Origin: Algoriphagus pacificus
GTDB lineage: Bacteria > Bacteroidota > Bacteroidia > Cytophagales > Cyclobacteriaceae
NCBI RefSeq assembly: GCF_017254845.1
Contig: NZ_JAFKCU010000003.1
Coordinates: 686,270 to 750,269, forward strand
Direction: 5' to 3'
Length of the DNA: 64,000 nt
Position numbers and translations under genes: made by a program. The notes below the pieces were generated by a model. It saw only the letters and a list, made by a program, of their open reading frames with translations. It did no database searches and was not told the origin of the DNA. Below, one piece after another: positions 1 to 17,596 of this stretch (position 1 is the stretch's first letter; each line of letters begins with the position of its first letter).

Positions 1-569
1 ATGCCTTGGGCGCTCGCTTTTATGAACTATTCAAGATACTTAAATCCGGTAGTGAAATAGAATTTTGTTTGACAGCAGAACAGAAAAACCAATTCAATCA
101 GTTTTTCGCACAAGTCCAAGATCAATACATTGCTTTGCAAGGGTTGGACTACATGGCTACTGTTCGTAGAATGGGTTTAGTTGCCTTTCGCATCAGTATG
201 ATTTTTACGGCTTTGCGAATTTTAGAAACTGGTGATACCAGCTCCCAGATGGTCTGTGAAGAGCGAGACTTTCAAGCTGCAATCAGTATGGTTAAAGTAC
301 TGGTGAAGCATTCGAGCAAAGTATTCAATGAGTTGCCGGAAGATGAAAAGCCCCCGTCTCGTAAAAACCGAAAGCAGAAGTTTTTGGAAGCTTTACCGAA
401 AAACTTCAACCGTCAGAAATACTTGGAAGTTGCCAAGGCATTGAATGTTGCCGACAAAACTGCGGAAGGTTACATCACTGAGTTCGCCAAAAAAGGATTG
501 ATCCATCGAGAAATGCAAGACCACTACATTAACCTTTCAGTAGATGACAACCCTACACCAACCAACTAG
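1..569 (+). CDS. DUF3987-family mobile-element protein, C-terminal part (5' end outside window)
   Basis: The frame is open from the window edge, so only the last 187 or so residues are visible and no start can be assigned. The segment has the all-helical look of the C-terminal half of DUF3987 proteins, which are primase/helicase-like proteins carried by Bacteroidota integrative and mobilisable elements. The last 70 residues (from about FLEALPKNF to the end) form a winged-helix-like region with a basic linker (SRKNRKQK). The gene reads toward the defence operon but is separated from it by about 160 bp with its own promoter, so it is probably a backbone gene of the element that carries the island. 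The family call rests on remembered similarity. Confidence 0.6.
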   Translation, partial: ALGARFYELFKILKSGSEIEFCLTAEQKNQFNQFFAQVQDQYIALQGLDYMATVRRMGLVAFRISMIFTALRILETGDTSSQMVCEERDFQAAISMVKVLVKHSSKVFNELPEDEKPPSRKNRKQKFLEALPKNFNRQKYLEVAKALNVADKTAEGYITEFAKKGLIHREMQDHYINLSVDDNPTPTN

Positions 570-693: not shown

Positions 694-722
694 TATATTT
701 GACAAATATTGACAAGTCAAAT
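694..722 (+). promoter_or_regulatory. Promoter with overlapping repeat operator upstream of the XRE gene
   Basis: TATATTTG at 694-701 fits the Bacteroidota -7 consensus TAnnTTTG. It is overlapped by the inverted repeat ATTTGAC (697-703) / GTCAAAT (716-722) and by two direct TTGACAA copies at 699-705 and 709-715, exactly 10 bp apart. The XRE start codon is at 731. Such an arrangement is typical of an autoregulated promoter, with the XRE protein blocking polymerase. That the XRE protein binds here is inference. Confidence 0.5.
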
Positions 723-730
723 GAACGGCA

Positions 731-1027
731 ATGAATTATCTAGGTAATAGGGTTCGTGAGCTTCGGGAAACAAAAGGCATTCTGATGCGACAGGTAGCCG
801 CCTTCATCGAAGTGGATACTGCTTTAATTAGCAAACTGGAACGTGGAGAGAGAAAGGCGCAACGAGATCAAATCACCAAGATTGCTGAGTTCCTTGAAGC
901 GGACGAAAAGGAACTTACCCTCCTTTGGCTTGCAGATAGAATCACAGATGATATTAAGGACGAGCCACAGGCTCTTGAAGCCTTGAAGTTTGTAGAAAAA
1001 CAATTTAAAAAGAACCTAAATGGCTAA
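731..1027 (+). CDS. XRE-family helix-turn-helix regulator of the restriction/defence operon
   Basis: This 98-residue protein has a Cro/CI-type HTH in residues 4-60 (RVRELRETKG, then LISKLERGERK as the recognition helix region) and a short helical tail. Single-domain XRE proteins directly upstream of hsdM are common in Bacteroidota type I restriction loci, where they act as controller proteins that delay restriction until methylation is established. The stop overlaps the start of hsdM by 8 bp, so the two are translationally coupled. Operator-like repeats lie just upstream (694-722), suggesting autoregulation. The HTH call is firm; the controller role is inferred from position. Confidence 0.85.
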   Translation: MNYLGNRVRELRETKGILMRQVAAFIEVDTALISKLERGERKAQRDQITKIAEFLEADEKELTLLWLADRITDDIKDEPQALEALKFVEKQFKKNLNG

Positions 1028-3266
1028 AAAAGAAAAAGACATCCAAGAAGAATCAATCGAAAAGAAACTCTGGAAGTCAGCAGATAAGCTCCGTAAGAAT
1101 ATGGATGCTGCCGAATACAAGCATGTGGTGTTGGGCTTAATCTTCCTCAAATACATTTCAGATGCCTTTGAAGAATTGTACCAGAAGTTAAAGACAGGTG
1201 AAGGAGAATATGAAGGTGCTGATGCGGAAGACAAAAACGAGTATGTAGCTGAAAAGGTCTTTTATGTTCCACCACAAGCCCGTTGGTCTTTCCTGATGGG
1301 TAGAGCGAAACAACCTACTATTGGTAAAGATGTAGATGATGCGATGGAATCTTTGGAAAAAGACAATATTTCATTAAAAGGAGTTTTACCGAAGGTTTAT
1401 GCAAAAACTAATTTGGACAAACAAAGTCTTGGGTCTCTTATTGATTTAATAGGTACGATAGCACTTGGTGACAAGGTTTCACGCAGTAAGGATGTTTTAG
1501 GGCAGATTTACGAATATTTCTTAGGCCGATTTGCACTTGCGGAAGGGAAAAAGGGTGGTCAGTTTTACACCCCTCGAAATGTTGTTGAATTATTGGTAGA
1601 ACTTATTGAGCCTTACGAAGGCAGAGTCTTTGATCCTTGCTGTGGTTCTGGCGGGATGTTTGTCCAAAGTGATCGTTTTGTTCAATATCATCAAGACCAC
1701 TACAATGCTGAAAAAAATAAACTTCAATTAAATCCATCAGATAGGATTTCTATTTACGGTCAAGAAAGCAATGAGACCACATGGCGTTTATGCAAAATGA
1801 ATTTAGCAATTCGTGGAATTGATAGTTCGAACGTAAGATGGAATAATGAAGGGTCTTTCTTGAATGACGCACACAAAGATTTAAAAGCTGATTTTATAAT
1901 TGCCAATCCACCCTTTAATGATAGTGATTGGAGTGGCGAGTTGCTTAGAAATGATGGACGATGGATTTTTGGCGTGCCACCAGCATCCAATGCGAACTTT
2001 GCTTGGTTTCAACATTTTCTGTACCACCTATCACCGAATGGTGTTGCTGGAATTGTAATGCATGGTGGAGCTGCTTCCAATAAAGGCCAGCAAGAATCTT
2101 CAATAAGAAAAAAAATTGTTGAAGCTAATCTAGTTGATTGCATTATAGCACTTCCTACACAGCTGTTTTACAATACAACTTTACCTGTTCACATATGGAT
2201 TTTAAGACGAAATAAATCTTTGAACAAAAATTATGGTTTGAGACCTAACGAGATTTTAATGATAGATGCCTACAATTTGGGCACAATGATAGAAAGTACA
2301 CAAAGAGAGTTATCTGATGAAGACTTGGCGTTAATTATCAATACTTATCATGATTGGCGTAATTCATCAGAAAACTATTCTGACACACCGGGCTTCTGTA
2401 AATCTGTGTCACAAGCTGATATTACGGCAAAATCTTTCATTCTAGCCCCAAATAGATATATAGATAGAATCAAACGTCACAGAGAAATACCTTTCAAATC
2501 TGATGTTCAAGATCATTTAGCAACGTTAACAAGTTATGTCAATAAATTAGGTTCATTCTTAAATTCTTTGGACACTCAATCAGATGGCCTTAAGGAAAAT
2601 TACTTCAATGCTTTTGATGATAGCAAATATGATAAGTCAAAATGGGTTCCAACGGAGCTGAATGAAATTGTAGATACAGTGATTTCGGGCAATTGGGGAA
2701 ATGCAGAGCCTAAAAAGAATAATATTGCAGTTAAAGTAATCAGGGGTACCGATCTACCTAATATTCCATTATTTAACTTACACAAAACACCAACAAGATA
2801 TATATCTAGTGATAAAGCGGAAGAAATCTCCCTTATTCCAGGTGATATTGTTGTGGAGATGTCCGGGGGAAGTAAAGATCAGCCTACTGGAAGGATTGGA
2901 TTTATAACTCCTGAACTTTTAGATTTTTTTGGCATGCCATTGATATGCAGTAATTTCTGTAAAGTAATTCGTTTAAACCCTAGTGCAGTTAATCCTTATT
3001 GGTTCTTTTATTATTGGATGCTTTCTTATGATGATGGCTTAACAACTCGTTACGAAAACCAGCCAAGTGGGATAAAAAACTTCCAATTAGATGAATATCT
3101 AGATAGCGAAATTATTCTGCTTCCTCCTGATGATGTTCAACAAGCCATATCTAATGAATTAAGTATTCTATTCGACCTGAAAAATAAGATGAATTATACG
3201 TCAAGCCTTCTCAAAAATTTAATGCACAAAGGATTTGAAAACATCTATTATGAATTCGATAAATAA
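1020..3266 (+). CDS. hsdM: Type I restriction-modification methyltransferase HsdM fused to a half-size HsdS
   Basis: The 748-residue protein is much longer than a usual HsdM (about 500). Residues 1-150 are the HsdM N-terminal helical domain. Next comes an N6-adenine methyltransferase domain with motif I DPCCGSGGMF at 205-214 and motif IV NPPF at 296-299. From about residue 500 a helical spacer leads into one target-recognition-domain-like region (about 541-748) ending in the helix typical of HsdS conserved regions. No separate hsdS is visible between here and hsdR, so specificity is probably carried by this half-S, which would have to dimerise to read a bipartite site. It overlaps the XRE gene by 8 bp and lies 40 bp before the RT gene. 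Methylase identity is certain; the S-fusion is read from sequence character and length. Confidence 0.9.
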   Translation: MAKKEKDIQEESIEKKLWKSADKLRKNMDAAEYKHVVLGLIFLKYISDAFEELYQKLKTGEGEYEGADAEDKNEYVAEKVFYVPPQARWSFLMGRAKQPTIGKDVDDAMESLEKDNISLKGVLPKVYAKTNLDKQSLGSLIDLIGTIALGDKVSRSKDVLGQIYEYFLGRFALAEGKKGGQFYTPRNVVELLVELIEPYEGRVFDPCCGSGGMFVQSDRFVQYHQDHYNAEKNKLQLNPSDRISIYGQESNETTWRLCKMNLAIRGIDSSNVRWNNEGSFLNDAHKDLKADFIIANPPFNDSDWSGELLRNDGRWIFGVPPASNANFAWFQHFLYHLSPNGVAGIVMHGGAASNKGQQESSIRKKIVEANLVDCIIALPTQLFYNTTLPVHIWILRRNKSLNKNYGLRPNEILMIDAYNLGTMIESTQRELSDEDLALIINTYHDWRNSSENYSDTPGFCKSVSQADITAKSFILAPNRYIDRIKRHREIPFKSDVQDHLATLTSYVNKLGSFLNSLDTQSDGLKENYFNAFDDSKYDKSKWVPTELNEIVDTVISGNWGNAEPKKNNIAVKVIRGTDLPNIPLFNLHKTPTRYISSDKAEEISLIPGDIVVEMSGGSKDQPTGRIGFITPELLDFFGMPLICSNFCKVIRLNPSAVNPYWFFYYWMLSYDDGLTTRYENQPSGIKNFQLDEYLDSEIILLPPDDVQQAISNELSILFDLKNKMNYTSSLLKNLMHKGFENIYYEFDK

Positions 3267-3306
3267 AGCATTTTGAGCTAAAGTTTGATCAATACAAATA
3301 TTAATT

Positions 3307-4815
3307 ATGAGAAGACTAATTCAACTATCAGCAGAAGAAGCAAGAGCCTTTCTATTGAAACAAGAAAGCTATGTCAACTTTGACTTGCCTTTGTACTTCA
3401 CATTCCAAGATGTACTAAACAATATCCATGCTGATCTGAATGGAAGCCTTCTCTCAGATTTTAGAGCCTCCTCACCAAGAGATTTTGACGACATAAATTA
3501 TAAGCTACTAACTAACAAGGATGGTAAATATGCCTGGAGACCGTTTCAACTGATCCACCCAGCCATTTATGTGTCATTGGTGCATCGAATTACTGAACCT
3601 GATAATTGGACCCTTATCCAAGAACGATTTACAGTATTCAGTGCCAATGATAAAATAGAATGCCATAGTATTCCTGTCGTCTCAGAATCAGAAGACAAAA
3701 CGGACAAAGATGCTCAAATCTATACTTGGTGGCAGTTGATTGAACAACGCTCAATTTCGTTGGCACTGGATTATCAGTACATGCTTCAAACGGATATTTC
3801 AGACTGCTATGGTTCGATTTACACTCACTCAGTCCCTTGGGCATTGCACACCAAAGAAGTAGCCAAAAGACGTGAGAATAGAAATAGGAATGCGTTGATT
3901 GGTGTAGCTATTGATAACCACCTTCAGGACATGAGTTTCGGGCAAACAAATGGCATTCCTCAAGGTAGCAGCTTAATGGATTTTATTGCCGAAATGGTTC
4001 TGGGTTATGTTGATTCATTGCTCACAGACAAAATCAATGAAATAGGCATCACCAATTATCGCATCCTGCGCTATCGTGATGACTACCGCATTTTTTCCAA
4101 CAATCCATTTGAAGCTGACCAGATCACCAAAGCCCTTTCGGAGATACTTTCTGAAATGGGGCTGAAACTGAATGCTGATAAAACAGAAGCATCAGATAAC
4201 GTAATTAAAAGCTCAATTAAACCAGACAAAAGGTATTGGATAGCAAATAAGCGTATCACAGAAAACAAACAGAAATGGCTCATTCAAATGCACTTGCTTT
4301 CAGAGCAGTTTCCTAATTCCGGAACACTGGACACGCAAATGAGAGAGTTCCTTAAAGTGATACAAAATAGTGAGCGTGAAGACCCAAACATTCATACATT
4401 AATCAGTTTGGTGGTGGAAATCGCCTATCGAAACCCAAGGGTTTCTCCAACTGCGATTGCTATACTCACTTTTCTTCTCAATCAAATTGAAAATGAAAAT
4501 GAAAGAAAAGGTACGATAGGCCGAATAAAAAGCAAGTTTGAACAGATACCGAACTCTGGCCTATTGAAGGTATGGTTACAAAGGCTCTATCTCAAAATTG
4601 ATGATTCAATTGTGTATGAAGAAGCACTTTGCAATAAGGTACTTACTCCTACTACTTCGATTTGGAATACCGATTGGCTAAACGCCAATCTTAAAGCAGT
4701 GATTGATAACACGCCAATTGTTGATTATGCAAGTGTGGAAGCCTTACAAGCGGTAGTTACAGAAGATGAAGTGGAAAATATTGTTGAAGCCAAGGCGTAT
4801 GATTATCAAGAGTAA
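3307..4815 (+). CDS. Reverse transcriptase of the Abi/UG (defence-associated) type
   Basis: This 502-residue protein has a complete RT core. An early motif WRPFQLIHP lies at about 77-85. Motif A is QTDISDCYGSIYTHS at 161-175, with catalytic D163. Motif B is GIPQGSSLMDFIAEM at 216-230. Motif C is RYRDDY at 255-260, with D258 and D259. The 'TDIs..Y.SIYTHS' form of motif A and the YRDD variant of motif C fit the unknown-group/Abi RTs involved in phage defence better than group II intron or retron RTs. The C-terminal 200 residues are helical with no recognisable maturase domain. No retron-like msr/msd space exists: the upstream gap is 40 bp. It sits between hsdM and hsdR, where hsdS is normally found, followed by a DUF3800 gene 22 bp away. 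Exact UG class is not assigned. Confidence 0.85.
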   Translation: MRRLIQLSAEEARAFLLKQESYVNFDLPLYFTFQDVLNNIHADLNGSLLSDFRASSPRDFDDINYKLLTNKDGKYAWRPFQLIHPAIYVSLVHRITEPDNWTLIQERFTVFSANDKIECHSIPVVSESEDKTDKDAQIYTWWQLIEQRSISLALDYQYMLQTDISDCYGSIYTHSVPWALHTKEVAKRRENRNRNALIGVAIDNHLQDMSFGQTNGIPQGSSLMDFIAEMVLGYVDSLLTDKINEIGITNYRILRYRDDYRIFSNNPFEADQITKALSEILSEMGLKLNADKTEASDNVIKSSIKPDKRYWIANKRITENKQKWLIQMHLLSEQFPNSGTLDTQMREFLKVIQNSEREDPNIHTLISLVVEIAYRNPRVSPTAIAILTFLLNQIENENERKGTIGRIKSKFEQIPNSGLLKVWLQRLYLKIDDSIVYEEALCNKVLTPTTSIWNTDWLNANLKAVIDNTPIVDYASVEALQAVVTEDEVENIVEAKAYDYQE

Positions 4816-4837
4816 AATGAGATTAAAATAAAAAAGC

Positions 4838-5545
4838 ATGTTGCGTTTAGAATACAATATATATTGTGATGAAAGCTGCCATTTACCCAATGACAATAGT
4901 AAGGTAATGGTGCTCGGTGCGACTTGGTGTCCTACCGCCAAAAGGCGAGAAATATTCACCCGCATCAGAGAAATCAAAGTCAAGCATGGTTTTAAACCCG
5001 ATTTTGAAATCAAGTGGAATAAAGTATCTCCGGCTGGAGTTGCTTTTTACATGGAGATTATCAATTACTTTTTTGATGATGACGACATTCATTTCAGAGC
5101 CTTGGTAGTACCTAATAAACAAGACCTTAATCATGAAGCCTTTAACCAAGATCATGATACCTTCTATTATAAAATGTATTTCGATTTATTGAAGGTCATC
5201 CTAAGTCCCGATTGTGCATACAACATTTACATTGACATTAAGGACACGAAGAGTCAGGAAAAAGTAGAGCACCTTCAAAATGTACTGCGCAACAATCATT
5301 ATGATTATCATAAGCAGATTGTTCAAAAGATTCAACAGGTACATAGCCATGAAGTAGAGTTACTCCAAATAACAGACATGCTTACAGGAGCCATATCATA
5401 TTTACACAGGGGTTTGTCTTCAAATGCTGGTAAAATGGCACTGATTGATAGGATCAAAAAGCGATCTGGGTATTCACTTACTCAATCTACCCTCTACAAG
5501 GAGAACAAATTCAATTTATTCATCTGGAAACCAAGAGCAGTATGA
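4838..5545 (+). CDS. DUF3800-domain protein (RNase H-like fold)
   Basis: The 235-residue protein opens with the family signature YCDES (D11, E12, S13). Other family-like acidic sites are NIYIDIKD in the middle and LLQITDMLTGA near the C-terminus. DUF3800 proteins are predicted to have an RNase H/retroviral-integrase-like fold with acidic residues that could bind metal. They occur often in phage-defence and mobile loci, but their biochemical activity is mostly unknown. The gene starts 22 bp after the RT stop and shares an ATGA overlap with the next gene, so the three are very likely co-translated. A nuclease role acting on RT product or template is speculation. Confidence 0.75.
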   Translation: MLRLEYNIYCDESCHLPNDNSKVMVLGATWCPTAKRREIFTRIREIKVKHGFKPDFEIKWNKVSPAGVAFYMEIINYFFDDDDIHFRALVVPNKQDLNHEAFNQDHDTFYYKMYFDLLKVILSPDCAYNIYIDIKDTKSQEKVEHLQNVLRNNHYDYHKQIVQKIQQVHSHEVELLQITDMLTGAISYLHRGLSSNAGKMALIDRIKKRSGYSLTQSTLYKENKFNLFIWKPRAV

Positions 5546-6051
5546 GTGGAGCAGTGAACGAATTGGAACTTCCTGAAATAATCACTCTGAATGAATATGG
5601 TGGAGACTTTACTTCCTATTTGGAAGCAGTTTACGCAATTTTCAAAAGGGATTTTATTGATAGCTCCCCGAGATATGAAGGAAAAAGGTTGGCACTAAAA
5701 AAACATCCATATATAGAAGGAAAAGAGTACACTTTTTATCACTTCACACATGATGGGGATATTGAGACCGATAGATTGCCAAATTTGAGAAGATTAGAGC
5801 GAATGCCTTTTCCTAGGCCCTTGATCGATAATTCAACACATCCATATCTAAAGGTATGGCGCAACAAAAGGGGCAACAAAGAAAGGATATTGATTTACCA
5901 TGAAGCAGAAGCCTATTTGGTAGTACTGGAAGATCGGGGTGATTACATTCTGCCGTGGACAGCCTATCTGGTAGAATATAGTAATAGACAGAAAAAGCTA
6001 ATTGATGAATATGAAGCCTATATAAAAGCCAAAACCGCTCAGGGTAACTGA
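5542..6051 (+). CDS. Unknown 169-residue protein, third gene of the RT cassette (possible BECR-like RNase)
   Basis: I cannot name a family with confidence. The protein is soluble, without signal peptide or membrane segment. Its C-terminal half is the most conserved-looking part: a basic strand (KVWRNKRGNKERILIYHE), then YLVVLEDRGDYILPWTAY and a charged helix. This Arg/Trp-Thr pattern resembles phage-type Barnase-EndoU-ColicinE5-RelE (BECR) fold nucleases, but I only note the resemblance. The start ATG overlaps the DUF3800 stop (ATGA), which fixes the start and implies coupled expression. An 86-bp gap without a terminator follows before hsdR. Confidence 0.7.
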   Translation: MSGAVNELELPEIITLNEYGGDFTSYLEAVYAIFKRDFIDSSPRYEGKRLALKKHPYIEGKEYTFYHFTHDGDIETDRLPNLRRLERMPFPRPLIDNSTHPYLKVWRNKRGNKERILIYHEAEAYLVVLEDRGDYILPWTAYLVEYSNRQKKLIDEYEAYIKAKTAQGN

Positions 6052-6137
6052 ACGGTCTCTTTTCTCCTTTGACACATGGTCATTGAGATAGTGCAAATGT
6101 ATGCAATTAGAACGAATGAAACAATAGAAAAGTTTAA

Positions 6138-9100
6138 ATGAGCAAGATAACCGAATCAGAAATTGAGCTTTATGCCCTCGAAGAACTGGAAAATCAAGGT
6201 TTCCAATATCTTCATGGCCCTGCCATTGCCCATGATGGTGAAAATCCTTTACGGCAAGATTATGGGCAGGTCATATTAAGCACGAAGCTCCAGGAGATTC
6301 TTCCTGTAATAAATCCGCAGTTACCAAATGAAGCCATATTTCAGGCAATAAAAGAAGTGGAACGGATTCAATCACCTGATTTGCTCAAAAACAACGAAGA
6401 CTTTCATCGTTTTCTCACGGACGGCATCCCTGTTTCATACCGTTTAAACGGAGTTGAAAAAAACGACTATTGTTGGTTGATTGATTTTGAAAGACCAGAA
6501 AGCAACTCTTTCCTTGCTGTGAATCAATTTACCATTCTCGAAAACAACAATAACAAAAGACCTGATATACTGCTATTCATCAACGGCATTCCCTTGGTAG
6601 TAGTTGAACTCAAGAATGCAGCAGACGAAAACGCAACCGTAAGAAAGGCGTTTGACCAGATCCAAACCTATAAAGCGACCATCCCTACATTGTTTAACTA
6701 CAATGCCTTTTGTATCGTATCAGATGGTCACGAATGCAAAGCGGGAACTATCTCGGCTGGATTCAGCCGTTACATGGCTTGGAAAACAGCGGATGGCAAT
6801 AAAGAAGCATCTAAGTTCAAACCGCAACTTGAAACCATGATTAAAGGGATGCTAACCCCATCCACCTTACTTGATTTGGTTCGCAACTTTATTGTCTTTG
6901 AAAAATCAAGAAAGGAAGACGCTAAAACTGGGATCATTCAAATTGAAACAGTTAAAAAGTTAGCAGCATATCACCAATACTTTGCAGTAAACAAGGCATT
7001 GATTAGCGCAAGTATTGCTTCTCGCCCCGATGGAGATAGGAAGGGTGGTGTAGTCTGGCATACACAGGGTTCTGGTAAATCTCTGTCAATGGTGTTTTTC
7101 TCGGGCAAATTGGTTCAGGCACTAAATAATCCAACAATTCTGGTCATTACAGATCGGAACGATTTAGATGACCAACTCTTTGACACTTTTGCTTCATCCA
7201 AACAGTTACTCAGGCAAGAACCAGTTCAAGCAAAAGATCGTGACCACTTAAAGGAGTTACTAAAAGTAGCCTCTGGGGGTATTGTCTTTACGACAATTCA
7301 AAAGTTTTTACCGGATGAAATAATTGACGATGATGGAAATAAGACTGGAAGAAAGAAAGAAATTTTTGACCTGCTTTCAAATCGTACCAATATCATTGTT
7401 ATTGCTGATGAAGCCCATAGAACGCAATACGGATTTGAAGCAAAAATTATAGAAGAACGTGATAAAGAATCCAAAGAAGTAATAGGCCAACGCATAGCCT
7501 ACGGCTTTGCTAAATACATGCGTGACGCACTTCCTAAAGCTACTTATGTAGGCTTTACAGGAACACCTGTAGAAGGTGAAGACAAGAACACACCTGCGGT
7601 CTTTGGTCATTATATAGATGTATATGACATTTCTGATGCGGTGGAAGATGGTGCTACAGTACGAATCTATTATGAAAGCCGTTTAGCAAAAATCAAATTG
7701 GATGATGAAGGCAAGCGAATCATTGAAGAGTTTGACAAAGAATTAGAACAGGAAGAACTCACAGAGAAGCAAAAGTCCAAGGCTAAATGGACTAAACTGG
7801 AAGCCATAGTGGGGCATCCTGACAGACTGAAAAACCTTGCTCAGGACATAGTAACTCATTTTGAAAACCGTCAATCTGTATTTGAAGGTAAAGGGATGAT
7901 AGTGGCCATGAGTCGCAGGATTGCAGCTGCTTTATATGCGGAAATCATTAAAGTTCGTCCCACTTGGCATGATGATGATTTATCAAAAGGAATAATCAAG
8001 GTAGTCATGACAGCCTCCAGTTCTGATGGTCCAGAAATGGAAAAGCATCATACCTCAAAGAAAGAAAGACTTGCATTAGCCAACAGAATGAAAGACCCTA
8101 ATGACCCATTGCAATTGGTCATTGTTCGGGATATGTGGCTCACTGGCTTTGATGCCCCAAGTATGCATACGCTTTATGTAGATAAACCTATGCGTGGACA
8201 TAACCTAATGCAAGCGATAGCAAGAGTTAACAGGGTATTTAAAGACAAACCTGGTGGCCTAGTAGTAGATTATTTAGGAATTGCTACAGACCTCAAGAAG
8301 GCTCTTTCCTTTTATTCAGATTCAGGTGGCAAAGGAGATCCAACGGAAACGCAAGAGAGAGCTGTAGAAATGCTCATGGAGAAATTGGAAGTAGTTCAGC
8401 AAATGTTCAATGAACAGAGTAAGTCACAATCTGACATTCTGGTTGAAGAACCACTTGCCTATTATCAAAATGCCTTTAGATTTAACTACAGAAGATTTTT
8501 TACAGCATCGCCTAGCGAAAAATTGTCAATAATTCTTCAGGCCGAAGAACACATTTTAGGGCTTGACAAAGGGAAAGAACGATTCATTAGAGAAGTAACA
8601 CTTTTGAGTAAGGTTTTCGCTCTTTCTGTTCCAAATGAAGATGCATTGGCGGTAAAAGATGATGTTGCATTCTTTCAAGCTGTAAAAGCAAGATTGGTAA
8701 AGTTTGATACTCCTTCCGGTGGTGGTAGGTCAGATGCCGATATGGAATCTGCAATTAAACAGGTGGTTGATGAAGCCCTAAGTTCAGATAAGGTAATAGA
8801 TATATTTGATGCAGCAGGTCTGCAAAAACCTGAAATTTCCATATTAAGCGAAGATTTCCTAATGGAAATTAAAGGAATGAAGCATCAAAACCTTGCCCTT
8901 GAACTCCTTAAAAAACTGCTTAATGATGAGATAAAAGTCCGCACAAAGCACAATCTAGTCAAAAGCAAGGCACTTCTGGAAATGCTAGAATCAGCAATCA
9001 AGAAATATCAAAATGGTTTGTTGACCACTGCCGAAATTATCCAAGAACTAATCGACTTGGCCAAAGAGATAAAGGCAGCAGACAAACGTGGTGAACAAAT

Positions 9101-9401
9101 GGGCATGAATGAAGATGAGCTAGCTTTTTATGATGCTTTAGAAGTAAATGACAGTGCTGTTCAAGTATTAGGTGATGATGCTTTGCGAATGATCGCTAGA
9201 GAGATTACTGATAAAGTTCGCTCGAATGCTTCAATAGATTGGACTATTAAAGAAAGTGTAAGAGCAAAACTAATGGTGTTGGTTCGTAGAACATTGAACA
9301 AGTACGGTTACCCACCAGACAAACAACCTAAAGCAATAGAAACAGTTCTGAAACAAGCTGAATTATTGGCAGATCATTTCACAAAAGACAAAAGTAAATA
9401 A
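6138..9401 (+). CDS. hsdR: Type I restriction enzyme R subunit (HsdR)
   Basis: The 1087-residue protein has the usual HsdR plan and length. The N-terminal PD-(D/E)XK nuclease shows PDILLFINGIPLVVVELKN, with the acidic D near residue 142 and ELK near 157-159. The SF2 translocase follows, with Walker A TQGSGKS near 308, the DEAH box DEAHRTQYG near 422 and GFTGTP near 473. The C-terminal helical part probably docks on the methylase. All key residues are present, so the enzyme looks active. It would cut unmodified DNA after ATP-driven translocation with the HsdM-S fusion at 1020. It is displaced from hsdM by the RT cassette and followed 3 bp later by a nuclease gene. Confidence 0.95.
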   Translation: MSKITESEIELYALEELENQGFQYLHGPAIAHDGENPLRQDYGQVILSTKLQEILPVINPQLPNEAIFQAIKEVERIQSPDLLKNNEDFHRFLTDGIPVSYRLNGVEKNDYCWLIDFERPESNSFLAVNQFTILENNNNKRPDILLFINGIPLVVVELKNAADENATVRKAFDQIQTYKATIPTLFNYNAFCIVSDGHECKAGTISAGFSRYMAWKTADGNKEASKFKPQLETMIKGMLTPSTLLDLVRNFIVFEKSRKEDAKTGIIQIETVKKLAAYHQYFAVNKALISASIASRPDGDRKGGVVWHTQGSGKSLSMVFFSGKLVQALNNPTILVITDRNDLDDQLFDTFASSKQLLRQEPVQAKDRDHLKELLKVASGGIVFTTIQKFLPDEIIDDDGNKTGRKKEIFDLLSNRTNIIVIADEAHRTQYGFEAKIIEERDKESKEVIGQRIAYGFAKYMRDALPKATYVGFTGTPVEGEDKNTPAVFGHYIDVYDISDAVEDGATVRIYYESRLAKIKLDDEGKRIIEEFDKELEQEELTEKQKSKAKWTKLEAIVGHPDRLKNLAQDIVTHFENRQSVFEGKGMIVAMSRRIAAALYAEIIKVRPTWHDDDLSKGIIKVVMTASSSDGPEMEKHHTSKKERLALANRMKDPNDPLQLVIVRDMWLTGFDAPSMHTLYVDKPMRGHNLMQAIARVNRVFKDKPGGLVVDYLGIATDLKKALSFYSDSGGKGDPTETQERAVEMLMEKLEVVQQMFNEQSKSQSDILVEEPLAYYQNAFRFNYRRFFTASPSEKLSIILQAEEHILGLDKGKERFIREVTLLSKVFALSVPNEDALAVKDDVAFFQAVKARLVKFDTPSGGGRSDADMESAIKQVVDEALSSDKVIDIFDAAGLQKPEISILSEDFLMEIKGMKHQNLALELLKKLLNDEIKVRTKHNLVKSKALLEMLESAIKKYQNGLLTTAEIIQELIDLAKEIKAADKRGEQMGMNEDELAFYDALEVNDSAVQVLGDDALRMIAREITDKVRSNASIDWTIKESVRAKLMVLVRRTLNKYGYPPDKQPKAIETVLKQAELLADHFTKDKSK

Positions 9402-9404
9402 GTA

Positions 9405-10382
9405 ATGGAAAGACTTTTACAAGCTGGACAATCATACGGATACTACGAATACAATACCGAAAAGGAGTTTGAGCAAATTATTGTACAACAAGCACCGCAC
9501 ATTTTTGGTGATTCCAGTATTTATATTGACATCAAAAAGCGCATTGGTGATAGTATAATAACAATTCCGGATGGATACCTAATTGACTTTTCATTCGTAG
9601 CAGAGCCAAGGCTTTACATCATAGAAAATGAACTTTCCAGCCACGATCCCTACAAGCACATCGGTTCACAGCTACTCAAATTTGCAATCTCATATAAAGC
9701 GAGTGGGCGAAAGATAAAGTCATTCCTTTTGGAACATCTGATTGCCAATGAACAGGCATTGAAACAAGCAGAACAAGGCTTAAAGAAAGCAGGGTATCGA
9801 AATATAGATGACTTTTTGGAGAGTATCATATTTGAGAAGCCAGTAGCTGCTATTGTGGTGATCGATCAAACTACCCCAGAATTGGAAAATGTTTTAAGTC
9901 AGCTCACAATGGATACAGATATAATTGAGTTTCAGACTTTCAAAAACAACGAAGATTCGATCTACAAATTTACCCCTTTCAATGCAGAAATAAGGGCAAT
10001 ATCCGAATCAAAAAGCACCACCTTAAAACCAGAAGAACTTAACACAGTGGTAGTAGCTGCAAGAGAAGAAGGTTTTGAGAAAGAATTTTTGAATAATAAC
10101 CGTTGGTATGCCATTCGTATCAATGCTTCAATGCTGGATAAGATTAAATATATAGCAGCCTATCAAGTTGCTCCAGTATCAGCCATAACCCATTATGCAG
10201 AAGTTGCCTCAATTGAAAAATGGGAAGACACTAATAAATATGTGCTGTACTTCAAAGATTCGCCAAAAACTATATCCCCCATTACATTGGATAAAGATAA
10301 AAAAGGGCTTGCACCACAAGCACCTAGATATACTTCGATTGAAAAAATATTGAAAGCAAAAAAACTCTCCCATGTTTTTTAA
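9405..10382 (+). CDS. PD-(D/E)XK nuclease-like protein paired with Argonaute
   Basis: The 325-residue protein has a nuclease-like N-terminal half. IPDGYLIDF carries D56 and D61, and LYIIENEL carries E74 and E76, followed by a helix HDPYKHIGSQLLKFA. This D...ExE layout is a variant PD-(D/E)XK site. The C-terminal half (about residues 200-325) looks like a substrate- or partner-binding domain. The start lies 3 bp after hsdR and the gene ends 11 bp before a long Argonaute. Catalytically inactive long-B Argonautes are known to work with co-encoded nuclease effectors (called BPAN), so an effector role is the best reading. It could alternatively serve the restriction system. Confidence 0.7.
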   Translation: MERLLQAGQSYGYYEYNTEKEFEQIIVQQAPHIFGDSSIYIDIKKRIGDSIITIPDGYLIDFSFVAEPRLYIIENELSSHDPYKHIGSQLLKFAISYKASGRKIKSFLLEHLIANEQALKQAEQGLKKAGYRNIDDFLESIIFEKPVAAIVVIDQTTPELENVLSQLTMDTDIIEFQTFKNNEDSIYKFTPFNAEIRAISESKSTTLKPEELNTVVVAAREEGFEKEFLNNNRWYAIRINASMLDKIKYIAAYQVAPVSAITHYAEVASIEKWEDTNKYVLYFKDSPKTISPITLDKDKKGLAPQAPRYTSIEKILKAKKLSHVF

Positions 10383-10393
10383 AATAATAGCCT

Positions 10394-12454
10394 ATGACTG
10401 ATCAAAATCTATTTTTCAATATACTGACCTTTGAATGGCCAGAAGAGCCAGTCACACTGTATTTCTCAGATACAGATAATGGGATGTGCCAAGAACTTTA
10501 CTTTACGCTGTTCCCGAATGAAGTTGAGAAACTGTTTCCAAATATTGTGCGCAACAGCACCAATAAGCTTTATACAACCTTTGGTTATGCAGCAGATGGT
10601 TTTAAGCCGTTGGAAATAAATTTGAAAACAGATAACCCTGATTTTGCGAAACGTTACTTTAATAACCAGATAAACTATTATTTCAGAAAGGTAGCAGACA
10701 AAATTGTCCGTACTGGATTCGTCAATGAAAATCAAATTTGGCTTAAATCCAGTTCAGGAAGCAAAAGTCTTTATGATGTCTATGAAAAGTTTTCATTGAA
10801 AGTTCAAATTGCCCTTGTGAGCAATTATCCAGAGATTGTGTTGTCTTATGATGGGCAGTCTAAAATTTGCAAGCAAAGTGCGGCAGCATTAATTACCACT
10901 ATTAGCCCCAAGCATTTCAACAGGGTTCTGCACAACAAAAGCTTTTATAAATGGGAAAAGTGCCAGGAAAATGAGTTCATCGATCCTGAAAATTGCTTTC
11001 CAGTAATTAACAAAGAGCTTGAAGCTGCTTTAGGTATTCCGATAGAAGCGCCAACAAGAGAAAATCGTTATCCTATATACCTTCGCTACATTCAAGGGTT
11101 CTACTCAAAATACCTTAAAAAGGAACAGTTTGGAAGGTTCATTAAGCTGAATGATGAAGGGTTTTTGGCTGTAAATCCGTCCAGAATAGACACTACATCC
11201 GAAGAAAGTAACCAGTTATTATTTGGTAATAGTCAGCCGGACACTACACCAAAGTATGCACTAAAAAATCTAAAGCCATTCAAGAAAAGTCCATACCCAA
11301 ATATTCATCTATTTTTCATTGTCCATTCAGACGACATAAACCACACCTTCACCATAAAAGATCATTTCGAAAACGGCTTAGCTTCATTTGAAGGCATGAG
11401 AAGTTTTGTTGGTCTCCATTTCCATACAGAAGAAGGATTCAGTATAGTTTTCAAGGATAAGAACAACCCAATTCCTGAGATTGAAAAAGAGCTGATTAAA
11501 AGAAGCTTTGATCCTGAAATTCGATACATAGCCATATACATCACTCCGTACGGCAAGTTTGAGAAGGATAAACCAAAGAGAGAAATTTACTACCAACTGA
11601 AGGAACTACTTCTTAAAAGAAGAATAACCTCTCAAGCAATAGACCCTAAAAAAATGGTAGAACAGGGTCTTAATTGGAAATACAGCCTACCAAATATTGC
11701 AGTTGCTATGTTGGCAAAGCTAGATGGTATTCCGTGGCGATTAAACACTCCTATCAAAAATGAACTAGTAGTTGGTGTTGGTGCTTTTAGGCATGTGGAT
11801 ATAGGAGTTCAATATATTGGAAGTGCTTTCAGTTTTACCAATAATGGGCGTTTTAACCGATTTGAATATTTCCTAAGAGATGAAATTGACATCCTTGCTG
11901 GTTCCATCGGTGATGCAGTGAAAAATTATGCTACAGTCAACGCCTCACCTGATAGGCTCATTATTCATTTCTACAAAACAATGAGTGAGAATGAAATGGA
12001 GCCTATTATCCAACAGCTATCAGACCTTGGACTCGATATTCCGGTATTTATCATTACCATCAACAAAACAGAATCGCAAGACATTGTAGCCTTTGACAGC
12101 AGCTGGAACGGACTAATGCCCGACAGTGGCACATTCATAGGCATAGGAAGAGACAAATATTTACTATTCAACAATACAAGATACAATAGTGGTCCAGTAG
12201 CAAAAGCAGATGGATTTCCTTTTCCAATCAAACTCAAAATCCAATGTTCCAATCCAGAACTTACTAAAGACACCAAAACGGTCAATGAATTGATTGATCA
12301 GGTGTATCAGTTCAGCAGGATGTACTGGAAATCAGTGAGGCAACAGAATTTACCAGTCACAATTAAATACCCTGAAATGGTGGCGCAAATAGCTCCCCAT
12401 TTCATTGGTAATGACATACCTCCTTATGGGAAGGACAATCTTTGGTTTTTATGA
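10394..12454 (+). CDS. Prokaryotic Argonaute, long type, PIWI catalytic residues apparently lost
   Basis: This 686-residue protein has a reduced N/PAZ-like half (1-370). A MID domain follows at about 375-420, with a Y..K...Q pattern (YYQLKELL, then ITSQAI) as used for guide 5'-end binding. A PIWI domain runs to the C-terminus (YWKSVRQQNLPVTIKYPEMV). Active Argonautes carry a DEDX tetrad. Here the first strand reads LVVGVGAFR with Gly where Asp is expected, and the strand RLIIHFYKTM lacks the usual Asp, so slicing is unlikely. This fits inactive long-B Argonautes that use a guide to sense invader DNA and trigger a partner effector, here probably the nuclease 11 bp upstream. Its stop overlaps the Fur gene start (ATGA). 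The Argonaute call is strong; the long-B class is inferred. Confidence 0.85.
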   Translation: MTDQNLFFNILTFEWPEEPVTLYFSDTDNGMCQELYFTLFPNEVEKLFPNIVRNSTNKLYTTFGYAADGFKPLEINLKTDNPDFAKRYFNNQINYYFRKVADKIVRTGFVNENQIWLKSSSGSKSLYDVYEKFSLKVQIALVSNYPEIVLSYDGQSKICKQSAAALITTISPKHFNRVLHNKSFYKWEKCQENEFIDPENCFPVINKELEAALGIPIEAPTRENRYPIYLRYIQGFYSKYLKKEQFGRFIKLNDEGFLAVNPSRIDTTSEESNQLLFGNSQPDTTPKYALKNLKPFKKSPYPNIHLFFIVHSDDINHTFTIKDHFENGLASFEGMRSFVGLHFHTEEGFSIVFKDKNNPIPEIEKELIKRSFDPEIRYIAIYITPYGKFEKDKPKREIYYQLKELLLKRRITSQAIDPKKMVEQGLNWKYSLPNIAVAMLAKLDGIPWRLNTPIKNELVVGVGAFRHVDIGVQYIGSAFSFTNNGRFNRFEYFLRDEIDILAGSIGDAVKNYATVNASPDRLIIHFYKTMSENEMEPIIQQLSDLGLDIPVFIITINKTESQDIVAFDSSWNGLMPDSGTFIGIGRDKYLLFNNTRYNSGPVAKADGFPFPIKLKIQCSNPELTKDTKTVNELIDQVYQFSRMYWKSVRQQNLPVTIKYPEMVAQIAPHFIGNDIPPYGKDNLWFL

Positions 12455-12861
12455 GCACCTTACAAGAAGAAAAACTAGAAAACAAAAATATCAAACCTAC
12501 CGCTATGCGGCTATTGGTATTACAATGCTTAATGGAGCAAAATCGTGCTTTAAGTTTGAATGAAATTGAAGTACTTTTCGAGAATGCTGATAAGTCAACC
12601 ATATTCAGAACGCTCAAAACATTTCAAGAAAACTATTTGGTACACAGAATCAATGACGGTAGCGGAGCAATCAAGTATGCCCTTTGTGATGATGATTGTA
12701 TTTGCAGTTTAAAAGATAACCACATCCATTTCCTATGTACTAAATGTGAAAAAACATATTGCCTAAAGGATACCCCTATTGCAACTCCAACTTTACCGAA
12801 TGGCTTTAAAGCAAACTTTGCCAATTATCTGATTGAAGGCATTTGTTCTACTTGTACCTAA
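12451..12861 (+). CDS. Fur-family metal-responsive repressor
   Basis: The 136-residue protein has an N-terminal winged helix (PTAMRLLVLQCL, then KSTIFRTLKTF as the recognition region) and a C-terminal metal/dimer domain with HIHFLCTKC and a final CSTC. These two CxxC pairs form the structural zinc site of Fur/Zur/PerR proteins. I chose the ATG at 12451 because it makes an ATGA overlap with the Argonaute stop; an ATG three codons upstream (12442) is also in frame. The genes downstream (TonB receptor, ICMT-like methyltransferase, CDF transporter) suggest a zinc or other divalent-metal regulon. The overlap means it is translated from the defence mRNA unless it has an internal promoter. Confidence 0.85.
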   Translation: MSTLQEEKLENKNIKPTAMRLLVLQCLMEQNRALSLNEIEVLFENADKSTIFRTLKTFQENYLVHRINDGSGAIKYALCDDDCICSLKDNHIHFLCTKCEKTYCLKDTPIATPTLPNGFKANFANYLIEGICSTCT

Positions 12862-12921
12862 ACTTTGCAATGGCATTGCACTCCTTAATAGCTTGCTTTG
12901 TGTTTGAATTAAAACTTGAAC

Positions 12922-15090
12922 ATGAAGCACGCATTCCTATCACTTTTCATTCTACTTAGCGTTTCGGCTGTTGGGCAAAACAGTATTTACTTTCAGGTTA
13001 ATGATGAAGAAGGTGAAAACCTCATTGGAGCAACTATTGTTATTGACGGAACGACAAATGGTGGGATAACAGATGCGGAAGGTAAGTACCACCTTCAAAA
13101 TATTCCCAACGGCTCAATCAACTTTGTAATAAGTTATGTTGGATATGAGCCTCAATCCAAGACACTAATTTTTCCCGAATCAAACGGTAAAACAATGGTT
13201 ATTATCATGGAATCGGCTAAAGAACTTGAAGAAGTAATTGTTTCTGCCACCCGTTCTTCAAGAACAATTGAGGCCATTCCAACTCGTATAGAAGCCATTA
13301 CCTTAGAAGAGCTTGGTGAGAAAGCAGCAATGAACTCAAGAAACATAAGCATGGTACTAAGGGAGTCCCCCGGTATTATGATGCAACAAACCTCTTTGAG
13401 TTCAGGAAACATGAGCATACGCATTCAAGGACTAGACGGCAGATATACTCAAATGCTGCGCGATGGTGCACCGATATATGGCGGCTTTGCAGGCGGGCTA
13501 TCAATCTTACAGATCCCGCCACTTGACTTAAAGCAATTTGAAATCATTAAAGGAGGAAATTCAACACTCTACGGGGGTGGAGCCATTGCAGGTATTGTAA
13601 ACTTAGTTACCAAAACCCCAGAAGAAGAACCTGAACTTACCATAATGATTGACCAAACAAGTGCATTGGGAACTACAGGAAATATCTTCTATGCCCAGAA
13701 GTATGGCAAACTAGGTTTAACCATGTATGGGTCGGGAAACAATCAAAAAGCATACGATCCTGATGATGATGGTTTCTCAAACATGCCTCAATCACAGTCT
13801 ATCACTTTAAATCCACGATTGTTTTACTACCCCAACCAGAATACAGAAGTTTCGCTTGGTATAGGTGCAACCCTTGATGAAAGAACAGGTGGAGATATGA
13901 AAGTGATTGATGGCAATCCTGAGATAGAAAATGTCTTTACGGAAGTAAATAAATCCGAAAGGTATAATTCTCAGTTCCTTTTCAAGAACCAAAAGGAAAA
14001 CCGTGAGATAATTTTAAAAAACAATATAAGCCTGTTCAACCGTGAATTAACTATTCCCGAATATTTATTTGATGGACAGCAGCTATCCAGCTTTTCAGAA
14101 GCATTTCTAAAACTCGACAAATCAGATGAAAATGAATGGCACTTAGGAGTGAATCATTATTACGAATCTTTCACAGACAACAATCCCGATAGCCTTGGCG
14201 CTCAGGATTACACATTCAATACGTTTGGTGCTTTTGTCCAGAACACAAGGAATTTAGGTGAAAGATTTGTTTTTGAAGGTGGCTTACGCACTGATTACAA
14301 CATTGAACATGGCCCCTTTGTATTGCCAAGACTTGCACTACTTTACAAGCACAGTAATAAGTTTTCTTCAAGGATAAGCGGTGCAATGGGTTATAAACTT
14401 CCAACGCTATTTACAGAAGATGCGGAGCGTATTTATTATAGAGATATAGCACCGATTAGCACAAGTTCACTCAATCCCGAAACCTCCATTGGTGGGAATA
14501 TTGACTTCAACTATAAAACTATTGTACTAGACAAATTCACTTTTGCCATTAACCAACTCTTCTTTTTCACGCAGCTCAACCAAGCATTAGTCCTAAGAGA
14601 AGATGTACCAAGCAGCACATACTTTTATGAAAATGCCGATGGCCCAATTCAAAGTTCAGGCTTTGAAACTTCGATTAGAACCACATACGAAGACTTTAAA
14701 TTATTTATGTATTACACCTATACCAACACAGAACTGAAATACGACAATATAAATAAGCAGCAGCCCTTAACCCCTGAGAGTATGGCAGGTTTCATTCTGA
14801 TGTATGAATTAGAAGACAATTGGTCAGTTGGCTACGAACTCTACTACACAGGTCGGCAATTTGATAACAGCTTTGATCAAAAATCGGACTATTGGACAAT
14901 GGGTTTTATGGTGATGAAACACTTTGAACACATTACCTTATTTGCCAACTTCGAGAATTTCACCAATACAATGCAAACCAATTTTGAGCCACTTGTAAAT
15001 GCTCCAATCTCAAATCCAACCTTCAATGATATATGGGCACCAACTCCAGGCTTTGTATTTAATGGTGGCGTGAAAATTAACATTTTCTAA
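12922..15090 (+). CDS. TonB-dependent outer-membrane receptor of the metal cluster
   Basis: The 722-residue protein starts with a signal peptide (MKHAFLSLFILLSVSAVGQ). A CarboxypepD_reg-like beta domain follows (ENLIGATIVIDGTTNGGITD). Next come a plug domain with ISMVLRESPGIM and GGNSTLYGGGAIAGIVNLVTK, and a 22-strand-type barrel. An in-frame TTG two codons upstream (12916) is less likely than this ATG. It is a modest-size receptor of the type that brings metal complexes across the outer membrane using TonB energy. It follows a Fur-family gene by 60 bp and precedes an ICMT-like gene and a CDF transporter, an arrangement seen in Bacteroidota metal-homeostasis islands. The substrate is not determined. 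Confidence 0.9.
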   Translation: MKHAFLSLFILLSVSAVGQNSIYFQVNDEEGENLIGATIVIDGTTNGGITDAEGKYHLQNIPNGSINFVISYVGYEPQSKTLIFPESNGKTMVIIMESAKELEEVIVSATRSSRTIEAIPTRIEAITLEELGEKAAMNSRNISMVLRESPGIMMQQTSLSSGNMSIRIQGLDGRYTQMLRDGAPIYGGFAGGLSILQIPPLDLKQFEIIKGGNSTLYGGGAIAGIVNLVTKTPEEEPELTIMIDQTSALGTTGNIFYAQKYGKLGLTMYGSGNNQKAYDPDDDGFSNMPQSQSITLNPRLFYYPNQNTEVSLGIGATLDERTGGDMKVIDGNPEIENVFTEVNKSERYNSQFLFKNQKENREIILKNNISLFNRELTIPEYLFDGQQLSSFSEAFLKLDKSDENEWHLGVNHYYESFTDNNPDSLGAQDYTFNTFGAFVQNTRNLGERFVFEGGLRTDYNIEHGPFVLPRLALLYKHSNKFSSRISGAMGYKLPTLFTEDAERIYYRDIAPISTSSLNPETSIGGNIDFNYKTIVLDKFTFAINQLFFFTQLNQALVLREDVPSSTYFYENADGPIQSSGFETSIRTTYEDFKLFMYYTYTNTELKYDNINKQQPLTPESMAGFILMYELEDNWSVGYELYYTGRQFDNSFDQKSDYWTMGFMVMKHFEHITLFANFENFTNTMQTNFEPLVNAPISNPTFNDIWAPTPGFVFNGGVKINIF

Positions 15091-15093
15091 ACC

Positions 15094-15693
15094 ATGGACT
15101 TTTACCAAATCATAACTCCTATTATAACCGTTGCATATTTGCTCATAGTGTTTGTGCTTCGCTCAATCATAGTATGGCGGCAATCGGGTGTTAATCCTTT
15201 TGTTTTCAGTTCAACCGAGAAAGCACATGACTACCTCGGTTTCATTTACAAAATGGCTGTTCTTTTTATGGCTGTAACTATTGTCTGCTACTCTTATCTA
15301 CCAGCTGTTTATTATTTTTTGAATCCTATCACTATTTTATCATGGAACTCAATACAAATGGTCGGTGTAGCCCTATTGCTAATCTCATTTCTTTGGACAT
15401 TAATCGCCCAAGTTCAAATGTCAGATTCTTGGCGTATTGGCATTGATTATGACGAAAAGACCAAGCTAGTGGATAAAGGGGTATTTACTATCTCAAGGAA
15501 CCCAGTATTCCTAGGCGTAGTGGTATTTTACATTGGAATTTTTCTCATACTTCCAAATACACTAAGCTTTACATTGGCAGTAGTAATGTTAATAATCGTA
15601 CAAGTTCAAGTAAGGTTAGAAGAAGAGTATTTACTTGAAACACATGGTAAAGCATACCAAATATATAAAAATAGTGTGAGACGATGGATTTGA
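15094..15693 (+). CDS. Isoprenylcysteine carboxyl methyltransferase (ICMT)/PEMT-like membrane protein
   Basis: The 199-residue integral membrane protein has about five hydrophobic helices. It carries the ICMT/PEMT signature near the C-terminus: GVFTISRNPVFLG, followed about 45 residues later by LEEEYLLETHGKAYQIYKNS. This motif binds S-adenosylmethionine in small membrane methyltransferases. Bacterial substrates are mostly unknown. It starts 3 bp after the TonB-receptor stop and overlaps the CDF gene, so it belongs to the metal operon. Confidence 0.8.
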   Translation: MDFYQIITPIITVAYLLIVFVLRSIIVWRQSGVNPFVFSSTEKAHDYLGFIYKMAVLFMAVTIVCYSYLPAVYYFLNPITILSWNSIQMVGVALLLISFLWTLIAQVQMSDSWRIGIDYDEKTKLVDKGVFTISRNPVFLGVVVFYIGIFLILPNTLSFTLAVVMLIIVQVQVRLEEEYLLETHGKAYQIYKNSVRRWI

Positions 15694-16490
15694 TGCGAAA
15701 AACAATATTCCATATTTCTAAAATGGACTGCCCTTCGGAAGAGCAAATGATTCGCATGAAGCTATCCGATTATGATTCCATAAAGCAGCTTGATTTTGAA
15801 ATTCCAGACAGAAAACTAACAGTAATACACCATGGCAATTCAACTGAAATATTGAATCTGCTAGAAGATCTCAAATTGGATACAAAGTTAGTTTCCGAAT
15901 CAAAAACGACACAGTCAATAAACTACTCAACAGACTCCAAAAAAGAACGAAAACTATTATGGGCAGTACTTCTGATTAATTTCTCATTTTTTGTAATTGA
16001 GATGCTATTTGGTTGGATTTCAAAGTCAATGGGGTTAGTGGCTGATTCATTAGATATGTTGGCTGATTCCATTGTGTATGCACTCAGTTTAATGGCAGTC
16101 GGGCAATCTGCTATTCGCAAAAAGAACGTTGCGAAATGGAGTGGATATTTTCAATTACTTCTAGCCATAATAGGATTAATTGAAGTAATAAGACGTTTTA
16201 TAGGTTCAGAAGAAATGCCTGTATTTCAAACCATGATTCTAATCTCATTTCTTGCCTTAATAGCCAATGGTTTATCATTATACCTCATTCAAAAATCCAA
16301 AAGCAAAGAAGCCCACATGCAGGCTTCAGCGATTTTTACTTCCAATGATATTATTATAAATTTTGGTGTGATAATAGCCGGTACACTTGTCTATTTTACG
16401 GGCAGTCAAATTCCTGACCTTGCAATTGGTTCAATAGTCTTTTTGATAGTCATTCGGGGTGCATTTCGAATACTCAAATTAGCAAGGTAA
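15684..16490 (+). CDS. Cation diffusion facilitator (CDF) transporter with N-terminal HMA-like region
   Basis: The 268-residue protein starts with an HMA-like segment (TIFHISKMDCPSEEQ, with one Cys where two are usual). Five to six membrane helices follow. CDF metal-site features are SMGLVADSLDMLADS in helix 2 and FTSNDIIINFGVI in helix 5. CDF proteins export Zn, Cd, Co or Fe from the cytoplasm in exchange for protons. The usual cytoplasmic C-terminal domain is nearly absent, as in short Bacteroidota CDFs. An alternative start at 15693 forms a TGATG junction with the preceding stop and gives 265 residues; either start keeps it coupled to the ICMT-like gene. Confidence 0.85.
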   Translation: MDLMRKTIFHISKMDCPSEEQMIRMKLSDYDSIKQLDFEIPDRKLTVIHHGNSTEILNLLEDLKLDTKLVSESKTTQSINYSTDSKKERKLLWAVLLINFSFFVIEMLFGWISKSMGLVADSLDMLADSIVYALSLMAVGQSAIRKKNVAKWSGYFQLLLAIIGLIEVIRRFIGSEEMPVFQTMILISFLALIANGLSLYLIQKSKSKEAHMQASAIFTSNDIIINFGVIIAGTLVYFTGSQIPDLAIGSIVFLIVIRGAFRILKLAR

Positions 16491-17508: not shown

Positions 17509-17540
17509 TTTGTACCTAATCTACAGAGTTATTAAATTTG
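17509..17540 (+). promoter_or_regulatory. Candidate promoter of the erm gene
   Basis: TTTG at 17509-17512 and TAAATTTG at 17533-17540 are 20 bp apart, matching the Bacteroidota -33/-7 consensus. The predicted transcript start is near 17546, leaving a leader of about 230 nt before the methylase start at 17777. Confidence 0.45.
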
Positions 17541-17545
17541 CAATT

Positions 17546-17596
17546 ATGTTCAAAGCAAATAGAATGTACTACAGTAGACCATGGACTGCTATCTAA
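17546..17596 (+). CDS. Possible 16-codon leader peptide upstream of erm
   Basis: A short frame, MFKANRMYYSRPWTAI, begins almost at the predicted transcript start and ends 180 nt before erm. An imperfect hairpin centred on CCATGG (17573-17590) lies inside it. Inducible erm genes elsewhere use ribosome stalling on such leaders. The classic stalling motifs are not obvious here, so this is a weak candidate. Confidence 0.2.
   Translation: MFKANRMYYSRPWTAI

Follow-up and report, generated by a model that had tools for sequence, protein, structure and literature searches.

A stack of defence genes before a long-B Argonaute gene in Algoriphagus pacificus: probable cargo slot of an island at mnmE

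Genes of the block

In the genome of Algoriphagus pacificus, a tightly packed row of defence-type genes leads from a small XRE-type regulator to a gene for a prokaryotic Argonaute (pAgo). It lies near the left end of the 64,000-nucleotide stretch analysed here (G000:C23:686270-750269, "the window"), and the sequence adjoining on the left (L115) was analysed with it. An earlier note on the window had described the row as one stack of co-regulated restriction, reverse transcriptase (RT) and Argonaute modules. We reproduce all of its open reading frames (ORFs) and strands, the gaps of 40, 22, 86, 3 and 11 bp and the overlaps of 8 and 4 bp, and its eight co-directional genes stand where it had put them. 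The Fur gene, which it had counted among the defence genes, does not belong with them: it opens the right (metal) arm of the island described below, outside the slot, and a Fur of 90% identity adjoins a different slot in a related locus (L048). Family identities come from Pfam, PADLOC and NCBIfam searches, and the features are collected in Table 1.

Table 1. Features of the block and of the island in window coordinates
Feature	Position	Strand	Basis or remark
DUF3987 protein, C-terminal part	3..569	+	Pfam PF13148; island backbone
Conserved promoter/operator-like element before XRE, -7-like TATATTTG then TTGACAAGTCAA	692..720	+	locus comparison
XRE regulator, left edge of cargo slot	731..1027	+	HTH_31/HTH_3
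HsdM fused to single-TRD (target recognition domain) HsdS, type I restriction-modification (R-M)	1020..3266	+	N6_Mtase, HsdM_N, Methylase_S; PADLOC MTase_I
AbiP2-type RT, nested in hsd operon	3307..4815	+	PADLOC AbiP2, E 1.7e-197
DUF3800 protein, PDC-M04A	4838..5545	+	Pfam, PADLOC
PDC-M04B, 169 aa	5542..6051	+	PADLOC
HsdR	6138..9401	+	HSDR_N, SWI2_SNF2, T1RH-like_C; NCBIfam hsdR
325-aa putative PD-(D/E)XK nuclease, slot accessory	9405..10382	+	PD...ExE motif
Long-B type pAgo, right edge of slot, backbone gene	10394..12454	+	family searches, alignments
Fur-family regulator, first gene of right (metal) arm, outside slot	12448..12861	+	Pfam; right-arm comparison
Right arm: TonB-receptor-like, methyltransferase-like, cation-efflux-like, Erm-like rRNA methyltransferase, DUF6266 proteins	12916..20456	+	ORFs; DUF6266 searched, other names by reading
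attR TTGTATCGGCAAGTA, copy of mnmE 3' end	20628..20642	+	inexact repeat scan

The block encodes HsdM, HsdS and HsdR domains together, as expected of a type I R-M system. The fused HsdM-S protein holds a single Methylase_S stretch (540-721) instead of the two-TRD form, and we therefore class it as a single-TRD fused variant; half-S forms of HsdS are known. In its three closest HsdM relatives (L037, L083 and L088) HsdM and HsdS are separate, and the fusion could be traceable to the insertion of the RT cassette. The RT matches PDB 7r08 with 322 bits (E 5.2e-95), and its relatives of 52-54% identity in two other genomes (L118 and L119) stand without M04 neighbours. PDC-M04A adjoins PDC-M04B as in the PDC-M04 candidate system, and similar adjacent pairs occur in L061, L088 and L098, there too in the inner slot described below.

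An island at the 3' end of mnmE

The block is part of a longer order that runs integrase ... BT4734-like primase, DUF3987 / XRE / slot / pAgo / metal arm / attachment (att) site. In L115 we find, from left to right, MnmE, an excisionase-like protein (117 aa), a tyrosine integrase (364 aa), a DUF6617 protein (p341), two helix-turn-helix (HTH)-like proteins, a PF08800 protein and DUF3987, where the names MnmE, excisionase and HTH come from reading the sequence. The PF08800 (BT4734-like) gene lies at L115:17818-18738 (E 2.1e-21); we take this family to be BT4734-like_N, formerly VirE_N. The complete DUF3987 ORF has 584 aa, starts at L115:18815 and stays open across the boundary to the window without a stop.

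The integrase adjoins the 3' end of mnmE, and an att repeat stands at both ends: the last bases of mnmE, TTCTGTATCGGAAAGTA, are copied at the attR of Table 1. In shuffled sequence 0.02 matches are expected, for a pattern that was fixed only after the site had been seen. The copy was revealed by an inexact scan and not by an exact-repeat scan at 12-14 bases. From the two copies the island therefore measures about 26.3 kb, with its left end beyond the window. Most probably, the block is the exchangeable cargo slot of this island.

The same ends are seen in relatives. Among the named related loci (the best 80 of 176 found), 12 carry an integrase of at least 56% identity; ten of these reach far enough to the left to show the excisionase-like gene, and in all ten MnmE stands directly left of it. 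The att motif is found to the right of pAgo in 12 of 80 loci (the window among them), in a set where many stretches stop short of it; L048 has a homologous site with two mismatches that the pattern missed. Three genomes (G010, G004 and G008) have mnmE and no integrase match. In the right arm, RND genes are found in 20 of the 80 loci (two of the 20 were searched). The arm in the window also holds, by reading, an Erm-family-like rRNA methyltransferase gene at 17693-18574, with a similar gene in L067 (cluster R35).

Turnover of the slot and its promoter

For the slot contents we compared 81 loci, leaving out L081, in which the pAgo ORF was not recognised, and putting in L120 and the window. A left anchor is visible in 50 of them, window included (36 by XRE and 14 by DUF3987 only), and in the other 31 the slot is only partly in view. 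The counts that follow are not independent events, because the loci are related to one another.

The anchored slots, which measure up to 9.8 kb from anchor to pAgo, are empty in 10 loci, type I or type I-like in 20, type III in 12 and of other content in 8. In seven of the empty ones XRE borders on pAgo, at a gap of -4 to 22 bp, and three have DUF3987 and no recognised XRE. HsdR is present in 16 of the 20 type I slots, while L039, L047, L055 and L076 were assigned by methyltransferase cluster only; both subunits are present in 11 of the 12 type III slots. When pAgo genes are grouped at 91-98% nucleotide identity, 9 of the 11 groups contain members with clearly different slots; in the remaining two, L034 and L035 are one gene apart and L096 has no upstream sequence. 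Type I loci have a further, inner slot between HsdM/S and HsdR; 16 of 21 such loci carry something there, in L046 no more than a 77-aa ORF. Occupants other than the M04A/B pairs are an AAA_15 gene together with a partner, a HigB-like gene (named by reading) beside an XRE-M78 gene, and RhuM, Abi_C and FRG proteins. Of 286 slot genes with 90 aa or more, 285 share the strand of pAgo, and the median of 348 gaps is 8 bp.

Upstream of XRE there is a conserved element that reads TATATT[T/A]G.CAA....TGACAAGTCA. Within one mismatch, TTGACAAGTCA occurs at 23 of the 36 XRE loci and in 42 of 2000 random 310-nt windows, a set that may itself include true sites. Variants of the element pair with different XRE helices: TGTCAAGT stands before all six XREs with the helix DTSM(I/V)SKFE(N/K)G (L042, L044, L045, L046, L050 and L059, several of them nearly identical) and TGGCAAGT before two XREs (L070 and L076 with TGGCAAGTCA); most others pair with TGACAAGTCA. 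By this comparison of sequences, the operator covaries with the XRE helix, and it is therefore plausible that one XRE-controlled promoter serves the block.

The earlier note had also seen no terminator-like hairpin between the genes, and our counts agree: there are 6 terminator-like sites in the block against 8.4 expected in shuffles, and an imperfect hairpin at the M04B-HsdR junction (6031-6059) is, as RNA, no stronger than shuffles (z -0.80). Matches to sigma-70-like promoters are at chance level (39 against 36.9; Bacteroidota promoters lie outside that scan), so that internal promoters are neither found nor excluded by it.

The Argonaute and the readings of the block

The closest full-length solved relative of the pAgo is RsAgo, which we take to be of the long-B class. 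Its PIWI domain has lost the catalytic tetrad (G463 in 75/75, Y527 in 73/75 and E661 in 73/75 sequences), and its MID guide-5' pocket is intact (YKQK in 75/75). The positions were set with the help of known motifs and of alignments with RsAgo and AfAgo, and the tetrad reading rests on these, since L015-L019, Ago relatives tried as possible active controls, have no obvious tetrad either. What stands right of pAgo differs from locus to locus, with Fur or further metal/RND genes among many kinds, so we see no constant downstream effector of the BPAN, BPAS or BPAM kind. As in the og_54 long-B subclade, a PF08800 gene lies upstream of pAgo.

The pAgo belongs to the island backbone and not to the R-M system. 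In 146 genomes, our own included, an integrase of at least 67% identity is found in ten, and in nine of these pAgo follows 5-17 kb downstream, on the contig and strand of the integrase. Eleven further genomes have the left end out of view, and in ten of them DUF3987 lies 10-23 kb upstream of pAgo, again on the same contig and strand (as a short piece with stops in G155 and a short piece in G152). G156 contains a second pAgo, and here too a DUF3987 gene precedes it by about 10 kb. L126 (G041) and L127 (G037) contain short remnants of pAgo interrupted by stops, which look like decayed copies. A crossover inside pAgo, hinted at by a 90% blastn block from 11683, is ruled out by windowed identity, which is mostly 57-72% over the last third of the gene; the rise to high identity has to come close to the 3' end of pAgo or beyond it.

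How can the block be understood? It is highly improbable that R-M, RT and Argonaute were selected together as a single defence system with integrated function, as tight packing and a single conserved promoter/operator-like element might lead one to think. Of the 81 slots, 31 of them only partly in view, one shows the RT and three show the 325-aa family, the slot can be empty, near-identical pAgo genes stand beside different slots, and the AbiP2 relatives in L118 and L119 do without these neighbours. The dedicated unit of the earlier note is thus not borne out, with R-M exchangeable or absent and Fur outside; what can be kept of its shared promoter is the recurring operon-like packing and the conserved element before XRE. 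The note had also held that a gene order unique to one strain would be due to chance, and this applies by half: the exact combination is seen only here, but the frame XRE-[R-M]-pAgo recurs. The arrangement is recurrent, non-random and real; it is a mobile slot for defence genes and not a new fused system. A short XRE regulator in front of R-M genes is common, and together with a weak distance correlation between XRE and Ago this would suit an XRE that arrived with the R-M system as its control (C) protein. We regard this as unlikely, given the seven loci in which XRE directly precedes pAgo with no R-M. We give slightly less credit still to the idea that the 325-aa protein is a pAgo effector, like bAgaN in BPAN systems. 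It lies 11 bp from pAgo and has a PD-(D/E)XK-like motif, with P55-D56 and E74xE76 invariant in an alignment of five sequences (window included), and nucleases often partner inactive pAgos (PMC2743648, PMC10620215). On the other hand, it is rare in the slots, its relatives in G085 and G132 occur in genomes without a match to this pAgo, and it is encoded upstream of pAgo while the og_15 effectors are described downstream (PMC10620215). A fragment of a relative in G042, which has pAgo, runs to the contig edge. The protein has no match in Pfam, PADLOC or NCBIfam at E 0.001, and its structure model is poor (mean predicted local distance difference test score, pLDDT, 45.5).

A possible but doubtful reading, though clearly better placed than these, is that pAgo works with the replication and maintenance genes of the island (BT4734-like primase and DUF3987), for instance taking guides from replicating DNA against competing elements or serving the upkeep of the island, and that the R-M slot is unrelated cargo. 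The divergence of pAgo tracks primase and DUF3987 more than HsdR. Computed on differing locus sets, the distance correlations with Ago are 0.76 for DUF3987 (n = 37), 0.77 for primase (n = 23) and 0.91 for p341 (n = 19), against 0.29 for HsdR (n = 24), which itself follows HsdM with 0.99. No constant effector adjoins pAgo, and the seven minimal slots consist of XRE and pAgo only. However, co-inheritance on one island yields the same correlation without contact; the integrase reaches just 0.52 with Ago (n = 15), and the host MnmE itself correlates with DUF3987 (0.67, n = 10) and less with Ago (0.39, n = 10).

Several observations weigh against the cargo slot on an mnmE island as we read it. In L060, L065, L070 and L095 the integrase is distant (21-27% alike) and MnmE does not come into view, so part of the wider family lies at other sites; these four keep the same pAgo/DUF3987 (or XRE) frame. 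Up to C23:808000, our genome did not reveal the native genes that empty genomes carry right of mnmE. The tenth integrase genome, G084, has the island start and HsdM and no pAgo match (its locus L122 shows the island at mnmE, the integrase interrupted by a stop, and the HsdM gene after DUF3987), and L068, one of the 11 unanchored loci followed further upstream, has no DUF3987 there; the other 20 of the 31 stand outside that follow-up. As to the regulator, the anchor is DUF3987 and not a recognised XRE in the 14 loci mentioned, L069 combines TGTCAAGTCA with an ordinary helix, the sites in L039 and L085 are poor, and we were not able to find the operator before XRE in L074, L082, L086 and L088. 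The XRE-Ago correlation is 0.27, so XRE may be exchanged as well. The correlations of HsdR (5 of 2000 permutations) and HsdM (0.44; 4 of 2000) with Ago are weak and not zero. Finally, genes were called by a longest-ORF script, and the classes come from BLAST clustering, in which one representative stood for each main cluster in the family searches.

Known systems and a proposed working

The closest regulated nested R-M that we found is the RptR-controlled RRDM island of enteropathogenic Escherichia coli (EPEC) (PMC12255303). There, too, a small repressor comes first, with palindromes at its own promoter, and a type I R-M system has another defence system nested between hsdS and hsdR. The order is RptR-HsdM-HsdS-DarTG2-HsdR, with DarTG2 in the place of AbiP2 and M04A/B, and RptR with TAGCTA sites in the place of XRE (HTH_31/HTH_3) with TTGACAAGTCAA; repression is demonstrated for RRDM, while here it would follow from the sequence. 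Co-regulated stacking, which the earlier note did not know as a described system, is already on record for a nested R-M island; what RRDM lacks, as far as its text was covered, is an Argonaute.

Among pAgos, ours resembles the og_54 VirE-N long-B group, with inactive PIWI and a PF08800 gene upstream, of which Song et al. deferred the study to future work (PMC10620215). That gene is located 2-8 genes upstream there; here it belongs to the island backbone and is the ninth upstream of pAgo in the window, and the third in most empty-slot islands. Ryazansky et al. list HTH_3, AlbA_2, HsdS and RND genes near long-B pAgos and type III restriction genes in pAgo operons, find no consensus operon and leave unexplained the RND genes of 14% of long-B operons (PMC6299218). 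In our loci R-M takes the left slot and RND the right arm. The island anatomy may account for the VirE-N and RND neighbours that these two papers left open, and one mobile-element anatomy may replace the whole list of VirE-N, HTH, HsdS, type III restriction and RND. Insertion at the trmE/mnmE 3' end is shared with SGI1-type islands, which are gammaproteobacterial. PrrC of EcoprrI is likewise a defence gene tied to type I R-M; in that system the R-M enzyme reportedly silences it. Among the titles and abstract starts of the papers listed we found no pAgo in mnmE islands and no R-M slot before pAgo; the published neighbourhood drawings lie in supplements, outside this scope.

In our reading, a tyrosine integrase placed this island at the 3' end of mnmE, with the last mnmE bases copied at each end. 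Its constant genes include the BT4734-like primase, DUF3987, in most members an XRE-type regulator, and the long-B pAgo. The space between regulator and pAgo usually holds one R-M system, of type I here, with a second, nested set between hsdS and hsdR (here AbiP2 RT and PDC-M04A/B), and accessory genes may come after HsdR (here the putative nuclease). As to its working, we infer that XRE binds TTGACAAGTCAA at its own promoter and keeps transcription low, and that one long transcript, from XRE through R-M and the nested systems to pAgo, would rise on entry or attack. R-M would then be the first line, RT and M04 would act independently, and the cleavage-dead, guide-binding pAgo would recognise invader nucleic acid. 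This suggests an XRE-controlled promoter as a platform for the exchange of defence systems, nested two deep. More tentatively, and with some doubt, one may think of a cleavage-dead pAgo group resident on one family of mobile islands, as guide-based partner of primase and DUF3987 against rival DNA, with the XRE promoter as landing and expression platform for swapped R-M and nested systems. Natural experiments are on offer where pAgo genes are nearly identical and their slots are empty, type I or type III.

Shortly past attR, a second pair of a 118-aa protein and an integrase (20940-22428, integrase gene 21298-22428) marks a tandem element; the second integrase is 45% identical to the first, and in G009 a related integrase gene starts 170 bp past mnmE. 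Metal-transport-like genes right of att (23935-33618, by reading), including a 1456-aa RND/CzcA-like protein, are perhaps the cargo of this tandem element. Farther right, and also by reading, two similar RadC-like genes (42925-43395 and 54531-55100) flank large RHS-repeat-like proteins (46014-53931).

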